Position numbers and translations under genes: made by a program
From: Haladaptatus caseinilyticus
GTDB lineage: Archaea; Halobacteriota; Halobacteria; Halobacteriales; Haladaptataceae
Direction of reading: 5' to 3'
NCBI RefSeq assembly: GCF_026248685.1
Contig: NZ_CP111037.1
Coordinates: 310,001 to 374,000 of the forward strand
Length of the DNA stretch: 64,000 nt
Part shown: in pieces, positions 33,370 to 38,836 of the stretch
Layout of the letters: each line of letters starts with the position of its first letter
Numbering within the stretch: the stretch's first letter is position 1
The notes under the pieces: generated by a model
Told to the model about the DNA's origin: nothing
Seen by the model: only the letters and a program-made list of their open reading frames with translations
Database searches by the model: none

Positions 33370-34480
33370 ACCCGTATTCGTTCGTGATACGATAGGCCGC
33401 AGTACCCCAGATGTAATCCTCACCCGGCCACCACGTCCGGGCGTTGTTGAATCCCCCGACGAGTAGCCCCGAGTCCGGGTTTTCGAGGTCGGGGTGATAG
33501 CTGACGCTCCCACTGTCGCCGTCGGTAAAATCCGACTGAGATCCCCATTTCAGCTGTCCTCGCTTGCAGACTTTTCCGTACGCGCAGGTCATACCGTCGA
33601 TGGCTTGAATGGATCCGAACGTGTGACCCGAATTGGGTGCGAACTTCTCCAGTTTCGCACCACGTGCTTTGAGTTCAGCGAGTCCCTCGCGCGTTAACTG
33701 GCCCACGACGGGAAGTTGTGAGGTACCCAGTATCTCGCTCACCGGACGAAACCCGTCCACCGGGTCGATTCGGACGAAATCGTCGAGTTGATAGCCTCGA
33801 CGAACCTCGCCGATCTTCCGCGGTCCGTCCGCCCCGACGGCGAAAAACGGTTCGCCGGTGAACCGTCCCTCGTCGCCGCCGTACACATGGTTCGATGTGA
33901 CGAAGAACGGTGTATCTCCGGCGTACATCGCAGGGGCAAGCGTTCCGGCGGCAACTCGATTGGCGCATTTGACCCCGCCCGGGATTCGTTTTCCCTCGAA
34001 CGACGCTACCTGCTCAGTTCGTGCCATGTTCGAGGATACCGATTCGACCCGGTTCACTTCGACGGCCACGTCGCCGACGCGTTCCGGGACGACGCCACTC
34101 GCCTCACTTCCGGTTACGTCAACCGCGAGTGTGGCGTTCCGACCGCCAAACTCCCCCGGAACAACGGCGCTTCCGACCACGCCGGGAGTCGAATGCACGT
34201 CGAGTCGCCGGTGGGCGTCGATCGCGGACCGGAGATCGTCGAACCAATCCGCGGGAACCATCGTCGTGCGGGGTTCGGAATTTTTGCCCTGCGCGTACAC
34301 GAGTGGTATATCGCTTCGCCCCAACACCTCCACGTCCTCCGGGGTGAGTAGCCCGGCCATGGAACCGAAACCGGCACCGAGAAGCGTCGAAATGAAACGC
34401 CGTCGCCCCATGGTCGTGAGTCGTCTGTCGAACGTGTTGCGTGTCGCTGGTCGTTCCGTACTGTCGTCTTGTGTCCCCAT
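33335..34480 (-). CDS. secreted trypsin-fold protein with Tat-like signal
   Basis: 381 residues from ATG 34480; ATG 34411 (MGRRRFISTLLGAG) would place the twin-Arg motif at the N-terminus and is equally possible. After the RR signal and hydrophobic segment, a chymotrypsin-like fold shows His in SNHVYGG, Asp in DDFVRIDPV and Ser in FTDGDSGSV, a likely catalytic triad. Export through Tat fits the folded, salt-adapted proteins of haloarchaea. The substrate is unknown and there is no propeptide signal. Confidence 0.8.
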   Translation of the reverse strand: MGTQDDSTERPATRNTFDRRLTTMGRRRFISTLLGAGFGSMAGLLTPEDVEVLGRSDIPLVYAQGKNSEPRTTMVPADWFDDLRSAIDAHRRLDVHSTPGVVGSAVVPGEFGGRNATLAVDVTGSEASGVVPERVGDVAVEVNRVESVSSNMARTEQVASFEGKRIPGGVKCANRVAAGTLAPAMYAGDTPFFVTSNHVYGGDEGRFTGEPFFAVGADGPRKIGEVRRGYQLDDFVRIDPVDGFRPVSEILGTSQLPVVGQLTREGLAELKARGAKLEKFAPNSGHTFGSIQAIDGMTCAYGKVCKRGQLKWGSQSDFTDGDSGSVSYHPDLENPDSGLLVGGFNNARTWWPGEDYIWGTAAYRITNEYGFTFSPPTADAR

Positions 34481-34589
34481 CGTGTCGTCTCCCCACTCTC
34501 ATCACCAGGTACGACGAGGGACTACTTGAAACGATACCGTCAGGTTCGGCAGGAGAGACAAAAAATTATCGAGAGGTAGAACGCGAGGT

Positions 34590-34605
34590 TTTAGGTGTGC
34601 CGAAA
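34590..34605. promoter_or_regulatory. degenerate DtxR-type box
   Basis: TTTAGG-TGTG-CCGAAA differs by one base from the perfect palindrome 36 bases downstream. Two sites at this spacing could hold two regulator dimers on the promoter of the iron operon. Confidence 0.55.
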
Positions 34606-34625
34606 AATAGGAAGTTTTACGTATC

Positions 34626-34641
34626 TTTAGGTGAGCCTAAA
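34626..34641. promoter_or_regulatory. DtxR/SirR-type iron box
   Basis: A perfect inverted repeat TTTAGG-TGAG-CCTAAA ends two bases before ATG 34644. It matches the general form of DtxR/IdeR sites (TTAGG..CCTAA). Positioned over the RNA start region just after the AT-rich TTTTACGTA box, it would block transcription when iron-bound repressor sits there. Confidence 0.8.
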
Positions 34642-34643
34642 AC

Positions 34644-35822
34644 ATGAGTATGGTAGCAGACGAGTCGAAAACCGTCACCCGACGCCGGTTCATCGCGGGA
34701 AGCGGTGTCGCTGGCGCGGCACTGCTCGCCGGTTGTACTGGTGACAACAGCGAAGGCGCGAAGACGACGAACAACGGAAACGGTAACGAACCGAACAGCA
34801 CCGGGACGAGCGGTGACGGTACGACCCAGTCTGGCCCGTACTCGGTCTCGATGGAACCGGTCGGGACCGTCGAGTTCGACTCCGTTCCGAAAACGTGGGT
34901 CGCCAACAACGGCAGTTGGGCCGACATGGGCGTCGCCCTCGGACTCGAACCACCGAAAGCGGTCTGGCTGACGAGTCGATATCACACCCAGTACTACGAC
35001 GAGATACCGGGCGTATCAGTCGACAAAAGCGGTATGCGCGACCTATCGCAGGACGGTGTAAACAAGGAGCTGTTCTACGAACTTGACGGCGACGTTCACG
35101 TCATCGACCCGAACTTCCTGATGAACCGATTCAACGGCTGGAAACAAAGCGACATCGACGAAGTCGAGAAGAACATCGCCCCGTTCTTCGGGAACAGTAT
35201 CTTCTCGCACGGTTACGACTTCCATAAGAATTACCGCTACTACACGCTCTACGAAGCGTTCGAGAAGTTGGCGGAAGTGTTCCAACGGACCGACCGATAC
35301 GAGAAGTTCGCGTCGCTTCACGACGAGTTCCAGTCCGATGTCGAGTCGGTCGTTCCGAAGAAGAAACAGGACCGGCCGGAAGTCGCAACTATGTGGGCAT
35401 CGGGCAATCAACCGACGTCGTTCCTCCCGTACCTCATCAGCGAGGGAACGAGTTTCAAGCAGTGGCGTGATCTCAAGGTTCGTGACGCGCTCGCTAACAC
35501 GTCGGTTCGGGATTTCCACAGCAACCGCGGGAAGGTCGATTTCGAGACGCTGCTCGAAATCGATCCCGACGTGCTGTTGCTCCGCGGGCACGAACAGCAG
35601 ACCGAGAAGGAGTTCCAGAACACGGTCGTCTCGTTCATGAAGAACCACTCCGTGGGCAGCAAACTCACGGCAGTCAAAAACGAGGATGTGTACCGTGGTG
35701 GCCCGCTCTATCAGGGACCCATCACGAACCTCGTCGTCACCGAACGTGCGGCACAGCAGGTGTACGACGTTTCGAAGCAGCTGTTCGACCGGAAGAAGGT
35801 CGCCAGCATCGTTGCCGGATAG
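34644..35822 (+). CDS. iron-siderophore ABC transporter substrate-binding lipoprotein
   Basis: 392 residues. The N-terminus holds a Tat motif and lipobox together (TRRRFIAGSGVAGAALLAGC), so it is exported folded and lipid-anchored. A Ser/Asn/Gly linker leads into a periplasmic-binding-protein class III fold as in FecB/FhuD (VWLTSRYHTQYYDEIPG, VHVIDPNFL, VLLLRGHEQQ). The iron box directly before the ATG supports iron control. It is followed, after a 271-base gap with another box, by permease, FAD protein and ATPase. Confidence 0.92.
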   Translation: MSMVADESKTVTRRRFIAGSGVAGAALLAGCTGDNSEGAKTTNNGNGNEPNSTGTSGDGTTQSGPYSVSMEPVGTVEFDSVPKTWVANNGSWADMGVALGLEPPKAVWLTSRYHTQYYDEIPGVSVDKSGMRDLSQDGVNKELFYELDGDVHVIDPNFLMNRFNGWKQSDIDEVEKNIAPFFGNSIFSHGYDFHKNYRYYTLYEAFEKLAEVFQRTDRYEKFASLHDEFQSDVESVVPKKKQDRPEVATMWASGNQPTSFLPYLISEGTSFKQWRDLKVRDALANTSVRDFHSNRGKVDFETLLEIDPDVLLLRGHEQQTEKEFQNTVVSFMKNHSVGSKLTAVKNEDVYRGGPLYQGPITNLVVTERAAQQVYDVSKQLFDRKKVASIVAG

Positions 35823-35999
35823 AAAAACTGCAATTGCCGAGTCAGTGTATCGTTCCCCGAACGACGCGAGCACGGTGGGCATCGCGCTCGCGTTCTCCCA
35901 TATCACAGCGGATTTTTTGACGCACGACAGTCTGAGTCGAGACGCATGGTCATGACGGAACCGATCCGTTCGAACTGAAAACCAAAGCTCTTATCGGTG

Positions 36000-36015
36000 T
36001 TTAGGCAGACCTAAA
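36000..36015. promoter_or_regulatory. second DtxR/SirR-type iron box
   Basis: A perfect inverted repeat TTTAGG-CAGA-CCTAAA, 79 bases before the permease ATG. A second box here implies a second iron-controlled promoter for permease, FAD protein and ATPase. The surrounding 35823-36093 gap shows no gene. Confidence 0.8.
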
Positions 36016-36093
36016 AACCGAAACTGGAACTCGAAACCGAAACCGTGCGGGCAGAAGCGCTCGATTCGGCCGAAATGAACGGAAAGAAGACAT

Positions 36094-37185
36094 ATGACAG
36101 AGGATTTTGGAACCGGAATTCGGGAGACGTTCGACGGGGCACTCACCGCACTCGTCGCTGCTAGCATCGGTATCGTCGTCGTCGGGTCGCTAATACAGGT
36201 GAGTTTCGGCGCGTTTTCGATGACGCTCGAACAGGCGTGGCGGGCGGTGTTCGACCCGAAGGTGCTGACGAATCCCGACGTTTTGATCGCCCTGCTCCTC
36301 GGAAACGAGATTCCCGTGGACTTGAGCAGTGAAACGACGGTCGTCTGGAGCCTCCGACTGCCACGCGTCCTCGTCGGGATTTTCGTCGGGGCCAACCTGG
36401 CGATCTCAGGGGCCATCTTTCAGGCCGTGACGCGAAACGAACTAGCGAGTCCGTACATCCTTGGCGTGAGCCACGGCGCAGGGTTCGCGGTGCTACTCAC
36501 CCTCATCGTCTTCAGCGGCCTGTCCGTCTTCCTCCCCTTGTTTGCCGCACTCGGCGGTATCGTCGCGTTTGTCATCGTCTACGCCATCGCGTGGAAGGGC
36601 GGGACGAGTCCCGTCCGCCTCGTGCTGGCCGGATTCATCGTGGGGACGATTTTCTACTCCTTCCAGCGCGGGTTATTCTTTTTCGCGCAGGATATCGGCG
36701 TCGTGCAGACTGCACTCGCATGGACGACTGGGTCACTCACTGGGACCGGGTGGGAACAAGTACGAACCATCCTAGTTCCGACGGTGTTCATCGTTCCGGT
36801 CGCCCTGCTGGTGTCCCGTCAACTCAATCTCCTCCTCCTCGGCGAGCGAACTGCCCGTTCGCTCGGGATGTCGGTCGAGCGAGTCCGGTTCGCGCTGTCC
36901 GCGCTGGCGATTATCGCCGCGAGCGCCGCCATCTCGGTTGCCGGAATCGTCAGCTTCGTCGGCCTCATCGTTCCACATATCGTTCGGAACGTCGTCGGAA
37001 CCGATTACCGAAAGCTCGTTCTCGGGTGTGCCTTCGCGGGACCTGCACTGGTAGTCGGGGCGGACGTGGGTGCACGACTCGCGCTCAATCCGATACAGGT
37101 CCCGGTGGGAATCGTCACCGGACTGGTCGGCGGCCCATACTTCCTCTATCTCATGCGCAAGCAGCAGAAACTGGGTGAACTGTAA
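36094..37185 (+). CDS. FecCD-family iron-siderophore ABC permease
   Basis: 363 residues with about nine or ten transmembrane segments. FecCD signatures are visible: LRLPRVLVGIFVGANLAISGAIFQAVTRNELASPYILGVSHGAGF, and the coupling-helix region LLLGERTARSLGMSVERVR, then VGLIVPHIVRNVVGTDYRK. As a single permease gene it probably works as a homodimer. Its last base is shared with the ATG of the FAD gene (TAATG), showing tight coupling. Confidence 0.93.
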   Translation: MTEDFGTGIRETFDGALTALVAASIGIVVVGSLIQVSFGAFSMTLEQAWRAVFDPKVLTNPDVLIALLLGNEIPVDLSSETTVVWSLRLPRVLVGIFVGANLAISGAIFQAVTRNELASPYILGVSHGAGFAVLLTLIVFSGLSVFLPLFAALGGIVAFVIVYAIAWKGGTSPVRLVLAGFIVGTIFYSFQRGLFFFAQDIGVVQTALAWTTGSLTGTGWEQVRTILVPTVFIVPVALLVSRQLNLLLLGERTARSLGMSVERVRFALSALAIIAASAAISVAGIVSFVGLIVPHIVRNVVGTDYRKLVLGCAFAGPALVVGADVGARLALNPIQVPVGIVTGLVGGPYFLYLMRKQQKLGEL

Positions 37186-37964
37186 TGGAACGAACTGATG
37201 TCGTCATCGTCGGCGGCGGCGCATCGGGGCTCTCAGCCGCGGTGTTCCTCGCCCGGTACGGGCTCGACACGCTAGTGTTCGACGGTGGCACCGCCGCGAT
37301 TCGCCAGTGCGTCCATCTCGAAAATTACCTCGGTTTCCCCGGTGGAATTCCGCCGGAAACGTTCCTCGCGATGAGCCGGGAACAGGCCGAACTCACCGGA
37401 GCGGAACTGGCCCAGGAAATGGTTGTCGAGGCCGCGAAAACCGACGAGGGGTTTCGTGTCGTCACGGCGAGCGGCCGGGAGGTCAAAACGAACCGACTGA
37501 TCGCCGCATCCGTGTACGACGACGACTATCTGTCCGCCTTCGAGGACGAGTTGGGGTCCGTTGAACCGGATGGAAGAACCACCGTTTCGGGACTGTACGT
37601 GACGGGATGGCTCGGCGATGCCGAGCATCAAGCCATCGTAAGTGCGGGTGACGGTGCGCGGACCGCGCTGGCGCTCGTCCGCGACGTGCGGCGGGAGGAC
37701 GAAGGCCTTTGGGACGAAATCGCCGACCACTACTACGATTGGACGGTCGAAGACGGGCGATACAGCGAGACGGACTGGGTGTGGTTGGATGAATTCGTCG
37801 CCGAGAATACCCCCAAAGATGCGACTCCGAAGGAGAAACGGCGAATGCGGAAACGACTCGAACGAGAGTATCTCGCGCTAGAAATGGACGACGTAGAGCG
37901 AAACGAGCGCGCGGAACGCGGACGAAAACTCGTCCAAAAACACGTGGAGGAGATCGAACCATGA
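37185..37964 (+). CDS. FAD-dependent oxidoreductase inside the iron ABC operon
   Basis: 259 residues. The N-terminus is a Rossmann FAD site (VVIVGGGASGLSAAVFLARYGLDTLVFDGG) as in thioredoxin reductases, and GLYVTGWLGD near residue 140 is the second FAD motif. There is no NADPH domain and no CxxC pair, so it is not a thioredoxin reductase. The C-terminal 90 residues are charged and helical (KEKRRMRKRLEREYL). Overlapping starts and stops (TAATG before, ATGA after) place it inside the operon. A role in reducing or releasing siderophore iron is inference. Confidence 0.8.
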   Translation: MERTDVVIVGGGASGLSAAVFLARYGLDTLVFDGGTAAIRQCVHLENYLGFPGGIPPETFLAMSREQAELTGAELAQEMVVEAAKTDEGFRVVTASGREVKTNRLIAASVYDDDYLSAFEDELGSVEPDGRTTVSGLYVTGWLGDAEHQAIVSAGDGARTALALVRDVRREDEGLWDEIADHYYDWTVEDGRYSETDWVWLDEFVAENTPKDATPKEKRRMRKRLEREYLALEMDDVERNERAERGRKLVQKHVEEIEP

Positions 37965-38836
37965 ACGAGCGAACACCGGACGACGGAAAACGGGAAACCG
38001 ATGGTGGAATGGTCGTCGAACGAAGCGAGAACCGAGATGGACAGACGGCGACAGACGCGAGCGAACTCCGTGGAACCGACCTTGAAATCGGATACCCGAA
38101 CTCGGGGGTCATCGTCGAATGCGAGTCGATCGTCGTTCCAGCGGGCGAAATCACGGCGCTCGTCGGGCCGAACGGAAGTGGAAAGAGCACGCTCCTCAAG
38201 GCGATGTCCCGGGAGCTCGAACCTGCGTCGGGTGTCGTGCAGCTAGATGGCAACGACGTGCACTCGCTTGGAACGAAAACGTTGGCACAGAAGCTTGGTC
38301 TGCTGTCGCAGGAGAACGAATCGCCCGGCAATCTGACCGTCGAAGGACTCGCCTACCATGGACGCTACCCGCATCGTGGTTTCTTCGAGTCGAAGACGGA
38401 GGGGGACCACGAAGCGGTAGAGCGCGCGCTCGAACTCGCAGGGGTAACGCACCTCCGTGACGAGGAGATGGGCAGTCTCAGCGGCGGCCAACGACAACTG
38501 GCATGGATCGCGATGGTTCTCGCACAGGACACGGACGTGCTCTTACTGGACGAACCGACCACCTACCTCGACCTGCGTCATCAACTGCGCGTACTGGAGG
38601 TCGTCCGGACCCTCACGCACGAAGAGGACTTGACTATCGGCATCGTTCTCCACGATATCTCGCAGGCGGCGCGCTACGCCGACAATCTCGTCGCCCTGCG
38701 TGATGGCGAACCGTACGACTGGGGACCACCGAGCGAAGTCGTAACCGAGGAACTACTTGCCGACGTGTTCGGCGTCGAAGCGACGGTCGGAATCGGCCCG
38801 GAGGGGCCGGTCGTAACGCCGCGACGTCCGTTGTAA
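37961..38836 (+). CDS. iron-siderophore ABC transporter ATPase (FecE/FhuC type)
   Basis: 291 residues. About 45 polar N-terminal residues precede the ABC domain: Walker A GPNGSGKST, signature LSGGQRQLAWIAMVLAQ, Walker B DVLLLDEPT and the H-loop His in IVLHDISQA. It energises the FecCD-type permease upstream. It starts on the last bases of the FAD gene (ATGA). The 38837-38960 gap after it separates it from a convergent peptidase and holds nothing recognised. Confidence 0.93.
   Translation: MNERTPDDGKRETDGGMVVERSENRDGQTATDASELRGTDLEIGYPNSGVIVECESIVVPAGEITALVGPNGSGKSTLLKAMSRELEPASGVVQLDGNDVHSLGTKTLAQKLGLLSQENESPGNLTVEGLAYHGRYPHRGFFESKTEGDHEAVERALELAGVTHLRDEEMGSLSGGQRQLAWIAMVLAQDTDVLLLDEPTTYLDLRHQLRVLEVVRTLTHEEDLTIGIVLHDISQAARYADNLVALRDGEPYDWGPPSEVVTEELLADVFGVEATVGIGPEGPVVTPRRPL

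Follow-up and report, generated by a model that had tools for sequence, protein, structure and literature searches.

The DtxR/IdeR box of Actinobacteria is 19 bp in form, and MDR1 of Archaeoglobus fulgidus is a metal-dependent DtxR homolog. According to a 2024 paper on Haloferax volcanii, TroR is reportedly the main iron regulator and binds a conserved motif. The motif of this species reportedly lies ~100 nt ahead of the start codon. We know of no regulatory data for the genus studied here. DtxR-family regulators control haloarchaeal iron homeostasis (PMC11349517, PMC5605881), and siderophore synthesis in Hfx. volcanii is induced at low iron (PMC11349517, PMC7407949). An archaeal repressor bound inside the promoter obstructs TBP/TFB, and one bound past TATA but ahead of the start codon prevents polymerase from being recruited (PMC4158304, PMC5937170). 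MDR1, as it is cited in PMC4158304, represses from downstream of BRE/TATA and interferes with polymerase recruitment.

We analyzed a 64-kb stretch of haloarchaeal DNA (G000:C2:310001-374000), referred to as the window, that contains four importer genes. Judged by the suf-linked DtxR protein, the closest relatives with a name are Haladaptatus species.

34644..35822, + strand: siderophore/iron substrate-binding lipoprotein, Peripla_BP_2, with Tat signal, 392 aa (Pfam PF01497, E=1.2e-17; TIGR01409)
36094..37185, + strand: FecCD-type permease, 363 aa (PF01032, E=4.5e-90)
37185..37964, + strand: FAD oxidoreductase, thioredoxin-reductase-like in its N-terminal half (PF07992, E=6.4e-9; TIGR01292 partial, E=1.2e-18)
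37961..38836, + strand: ABC ATPase, FecE/FhuC-like, 291 aa (PF00005, E=2.1e-31; FecE model E=4.9e-75, under the model's cut-off)

With a Peripla_BP_2 protein, a FecCD permease and a matching ATPase in one cluster, the four genes are, as judged from their domains, a ferric-siderophore-type importer, to which the B12 and heme types are related. The FAD oxidoreductase is a candidate ferric-siderophore reductase; many genomes of the family have a homolog near a siderophore-binding-protein gene, with the gene order varying from case to case, and this fits the role. In two relatives, several paralogous siderophore-binding-protein genes stand in tandem (G024:C1:205244-211459 and G008:C24:370944-374648).

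The palindromes at this cluster are very probably operators of a DtxR-family metal-dependent repressor acting on the importer, because of site enrichment, target genes, conservation and position relative to BRE/TATA.

Promoters and putative operators of the importer cluster

34590..34605, no strand: putative distal operator TTTAGGTGTGCCGAAA, one mismatch, upstream of BRE
34606..34625, + strand: 20-bp linker containing a BRE-like element (AGGAAG) and a TATA-like one (TTTTACG, 34615-34621); in the family, the consensus of this linker is CCGAAGC..TTA
34626..34641, no strand: putative proximal operator TTTAGGTGAGCCTAAA, perfect, between TATA and the start codon
35863..35894, + strand: conserved RNA hairpin 3' of the binding-protein stop, which may mark termination or processing of the transcript; TTTTTT comes after it at 35913-35918
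35978..35996, + strand: second promoter core AAAACCAAAGCTCTTATCG, BRE and TATA, within the conserved island AAAACCAAAGCTCTTAT
36000..36015, no strand: putative third operator TTTAGGCAGACCTAAA, perfect, immediately 3' of the second TATA box

In the window letters, TTTAGG-N4-CCTAAA is perfect at 34626-34641 and 36000-36015 and has one mismatch at 34590-34605, all three exactly where the original prediction had placed them. It had also put one palindrome two bases before the binding-protein ATG and another before the permease; two bases indeed separate the proximal operator from the ATG at 34644, and 78 bp separate the third from the permease ATG at 36094. Operators stand on either side of BRE/TATA at the first promoter, and one stands directly downstream of TATA at the second. 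The first TATA is centred ~26 bp before the ATG, so the binding-protein mRNA is likely leaderless.

The operators of the window and their BRE/TATA elements are conserved in seven same-genus genomes, and the distal operator keeps the same 36-bp register in genomes of this genus. The stretch AAAACCAAAGCTCTTAT, followed directly by the third operator, is an identical island in seven same-genus genomes, within an otherwise divergent intergenic region; the third operator is kept in all seven, with one mismatch in two of these. In 27 of the 28 genomes of the family, the binding-protein homologs are likewise preceded by two operators, and in the homolog promoters that were aligned the linker between them contains CCGAAG-like BRE and TATA elements.

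Across haloarchaea, the single motif was found in 144 of 145 genomes, with a reversed-pattern control near zero. When spacings of 19-49 bp were permitted, perfect tandem pairs appeared in 113 of 292 genomes, and the reversed-pattern control gave no match. Among the pairs listed, the centre spacing was 34-37 bp in 67 of 75 perfect tandem pairs (hand tally; the binomial calculation on pair spacing ignores relatedness of the genomes). Tandem operators thus appear to bracket BRE/TATA at 34-37 bp almost always. Many haloarchaeal iron promoters follow this strict twin-operator rule, which makes targets predictable from sequence.

According to the original prediction, two promoters serve one operon. 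The two promoters stand, each with conserved BRE/TATA; the single operon is less certain, and the promoters may instead serve two transcription units, because a covarying hairpin and a T-run separate the binding-protein and permease genes. The hairpin has 12 consensus pairs, two of them with compensatory changes (seven genomes), and its loop, ACGGTRGGCATC, was located at this locus in the window. The T-run that follows is present in this genome. No Rfam element was found in 34400-36200. Partial read-through between the two units is possible. Alternatively, the binding protein could share one transcript with the permease, oxidoreductase and ATPase, and the internal site would only fine-tune it. 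The four genes lie on one strand in functional order, and the FAD and ATPase genes overlap, but the 271-bp gap with its covarying hairpin, T-run and conserved BRE/TATA-operator island speaks against a single transcript, which we take as a serious candidate but less likely than not.

Candidate regulators

Four clear DtxR proteins (D1-D4) are encoded in the genome, and two of them are the main candidates.

C1:2605713-2606378: D1, full-length DtxR protein, 222 aa, with HTH, metal/dimerisation and FeoA domains
L035:7931-8359 (G000:C1:2598430-2598855): D2, short suf-linked DtxR protein, putative TroR/HVO_0863 ortholog

D1 has the full domain set of a DtxR-family regulator, and it retains the DtxR/MntR ligand positions (RHHRLLE and EVHEEADRLEHH), making its metal-ligand set complete. 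Some of its features are MntR-like: the second metal site has Asp, not Cys, and the best NCBIfam model is MntR, at a score far below the cut-off. The gene of a GDT1 divalent-cation antiporter adjoins that of D1. One canonical ligand is missing in D3, whose gene on C5 is close to metal-ABC-transporter-like genes, and most are missing in D2 and D4. D4 (L036:5358-5792) is a short DtxR homolog with a cysteine-rich tail, HPCAGQCSAPQTEYSECCDD.

In D2, the equivalents of H79, H98 and H106 are replaced, and it departs from a classical DtxR sensor in the His/Glu metal ligands of the second domain. Four cysteines (C77, C121, C124 and C132) are invariant in 81 of 81 D2 orthologs and possibly form an Fe-S or Cys4 metal site; in the predicted structure of one ortholog, the cysteine-bearing tail has a pLDDT of ~55, too low to show whether the cysteines cluster. 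D2 is present in nearly all genomes at ~70% identity or more and lies with suf genes in 53 of the 59 long loci. In Haloferax-like genomes, a published primer that flanks HVO_0863 (PMC6801745) has its match ~540 bp ahead of D2, within the stated amplicon length; the reverse primer falls beyond the flank examined. By this one-primer mapping, D2 is identified as the ortholog of Hfx. volcanii TroR. Beside it, a 166-aa protein of no Pfam family (L035:7434-7934) occurs in 59 of 59 long haloarchaeal loci.

The repressor is most likely D1, possibly together with D2, as far as sequence comparison can tell. G119, the sole motif-less genome of the 145, is also alone in having no close D1; G312, of the same genus, carries D1 together with five sites. 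The joint loss of D1 and motif is a single case, and the genome of G119 is small and may have shed iron-uptake genes too.

The operators could instead be bound by D2 rather than D1, with D2 sensing iron via another site. This is suggested by the work on Hfx. volcanii TroR, whose role conflicts with or complements our assignment to D1, and by the near-universal presence and suf linkage of D2. However, the canonical metal ligands of D2 are lost, G119 has D2 without the motif, and G028, G034 and G048 keep two or three sites without a close D2 ortholog, although a D2-like paralog is present in them. Presence and absence across genomes thus do not support D2 as a regulator tracked by the motif. D2 as the sole binder deserves to be kept in view, at somewhat less than even chances. 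D1 remains the preferred repressor.

We also conceived, as a tentative and rather unlikely arrangement, that two kinds of DtxR protein act on the same operators, one being the metal-binding, SirR-like D1 and the other the suf-linked TroR ortholog, which has lost its metal site and whose four cysteines would sense an Fe-S cluster or hold a metal through their thiols. Both would use the operator pairs that flank BRE/TATA at 34-37 bp as their platform. A TroR ortholog without canonical ligands but with four cysteines raises the question of whether haloarchaea sense free metal or iron-sulfur status.

The motif in the genome and the effector metal

The genome contains 18 sites with zero or one mismatch. 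A search for the motif upstream of iron genes had been proposed with the original prediction, and the perfect and one-mismatch sites turned out to lie mostly at such genes.

L026: second Peripla_BP_2 gene, adjoining a site with zero or one mismatch
L027: siderophore cluster (class-III aminotransferase, IucA/IucC, acetyltransferase), two perfect sites 36 bp apart
L029: DUF5059-halocyanin gene, site pair 35 bp apart
L031: Fbp-type binding protein with permease and ATPase, adjoining a site with zero or one mismatch
L032: ZIP transporter, one-mismatch site

Sites also adjoin genes of unclear role at L028, L030, L031, L033, L034 and L038, among them DUF7552, RGP, cupin and DJ-1 genes. The targets are mostly iron genes for uptake, siderophore biosynthesis and the Fbp-type transporter, and sites in the promoters of metal-uptake genes are what a DtxR-family regulon would have. 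The sufCBD genes are included via a weaker site, CTTAGGTGAACCTAAC (L035:3791-3806), which has two mismatches and ends at the sufC start codon. The sufC site is strongly conserved in Haladaptatus/Halorussus relatives; outside this group it is mostly absent, 41 of 59 loci having no site at three or fewer mismatches. A clean iron regulon would thereby be available for this genus, tying the siderophore importer and its linked FAD oxidoreductase to predicted operators.

That the effector is iron rather than manganese we infer solely from the targets. The same operators and the same family could respond to manganese, or to both manganese and iron, since D1 is nearest to MntR-type models (with partial scores) and beside GDT1, and the ZIP transporter has a one-mismatch site. 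However, the transporters of siderophores and ferric iron and the cluster for siderophore synthesis, which are the clearest targets, have no manganese role, making a manganese effector improbable.

In the 64-kb window, the three sites are the sole matches at two or fewer mismatches. The shuffled expectation is 0.55, and three or more matches were reached in 2 of 100 shuffles. Two perfect motifs were observed, against a Markov expectation of ~0.0001-0.002, and nine in the genome (4.82 Mb), against 0.006-0.13, with the Markov model built on 253 kb of this genome. When the half-sites were tested genome-wide at spacers of 0-24, all nine occurrences had spacer 4 and no other spacer was found. The genome count at two or fewer mismatches was 41, approximately the scaled-up shuffle expectation, so two-mismatch matches mean little alone. 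The excess is confined to sites with no mismatch (9) and one mismatch (9).

The perfect motif is therefore not equally common elsewhere; it is enriched over expectation roughly at least 70-fold and lies just before iron genes. This is a non-random inverted repeat with TTAGG half-sites, as expected of a DtxR-family operator. An origin of the palindromes by chance, or as AT-rich repeats with no regulatory role, for which the near-chance count at two mismatches might speak, is ruled out for practical purposes by the perfect-site excess and the spacer-4-only pattern, together with position and conservation.

The original reading of DtxR-type metal-dependent repression is thus strengthened by the enrichment, the iron-gene targets and the encoded DtxR-family proteins. 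Operators flanking BRE/TATA and directly downstream of TATA make occlusion under iron sufficiency the best explanation. When iron is plentiful, metal-loaded repressor dimers would occupy the pair at 34590-34641 and the single site at 36000-36015. On the pair, the repressor would flank BRE/TATA and also cover the stretch from TATA to the start codon; bound at either promoter, it would keep TBP/TFB or RNA polymerase from loading. When iron falls, both promoters would open, and the siderophore-binding protein would be made, as would the permease, FAD oxidoreductase and ATPase, either separately or together with it. We infer binding, repression, and the identities of metal and repressor. The siderophore genes of Haloferax mediterranei fall together with a FecCD permease/ATPase/FAD-oxidoreductase set as a FeoA-domain DtxR ('SirR') rises (PMC11218638), a pattern that agrees with the repression reading.

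Comparison with known systems

The iron switch is real, well supported and essentially of a known type. What may be less expected are the strict spacing of the twin operators and a TroR ortholog that bears cysteines.

As in FecBCDE and FhuBCD importers, a binding protein, a FecCD permease and a FecE/FhuC-like ATPase are present, but here an FAD oxidoreductase gene sits between the permease and ATPase genes. With the DtxR/IdeR boxes of Actinobacteria, the sites share inverted TTAGG half-sites and a repressor with HTH, metal/dimer and SH3/FeoA domains. The palindrome here is, however, 16 bp long with a 4-bp spacer, not a 19-bp box, and stands in an archaeal promoter context. DtxR-family iron regulation is common to Idr1, Idr2 and SirR of Halobacterium salinarum and to Idr, SirR and TroR of Hfx. 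volcanii. In the latter species the motif reportedly lies far upstream of the start codon, whereas the sites here lie 2-78 nt upstream. The locus resembles MDR1 in that an archaeal repressor would act downstream of BRE/TATA, and differs from it in the recurring pair of sites, 34-37 bp apart on either side of BRE/TATA, and in that its candidate regulators are encoded outside the importer cluster.
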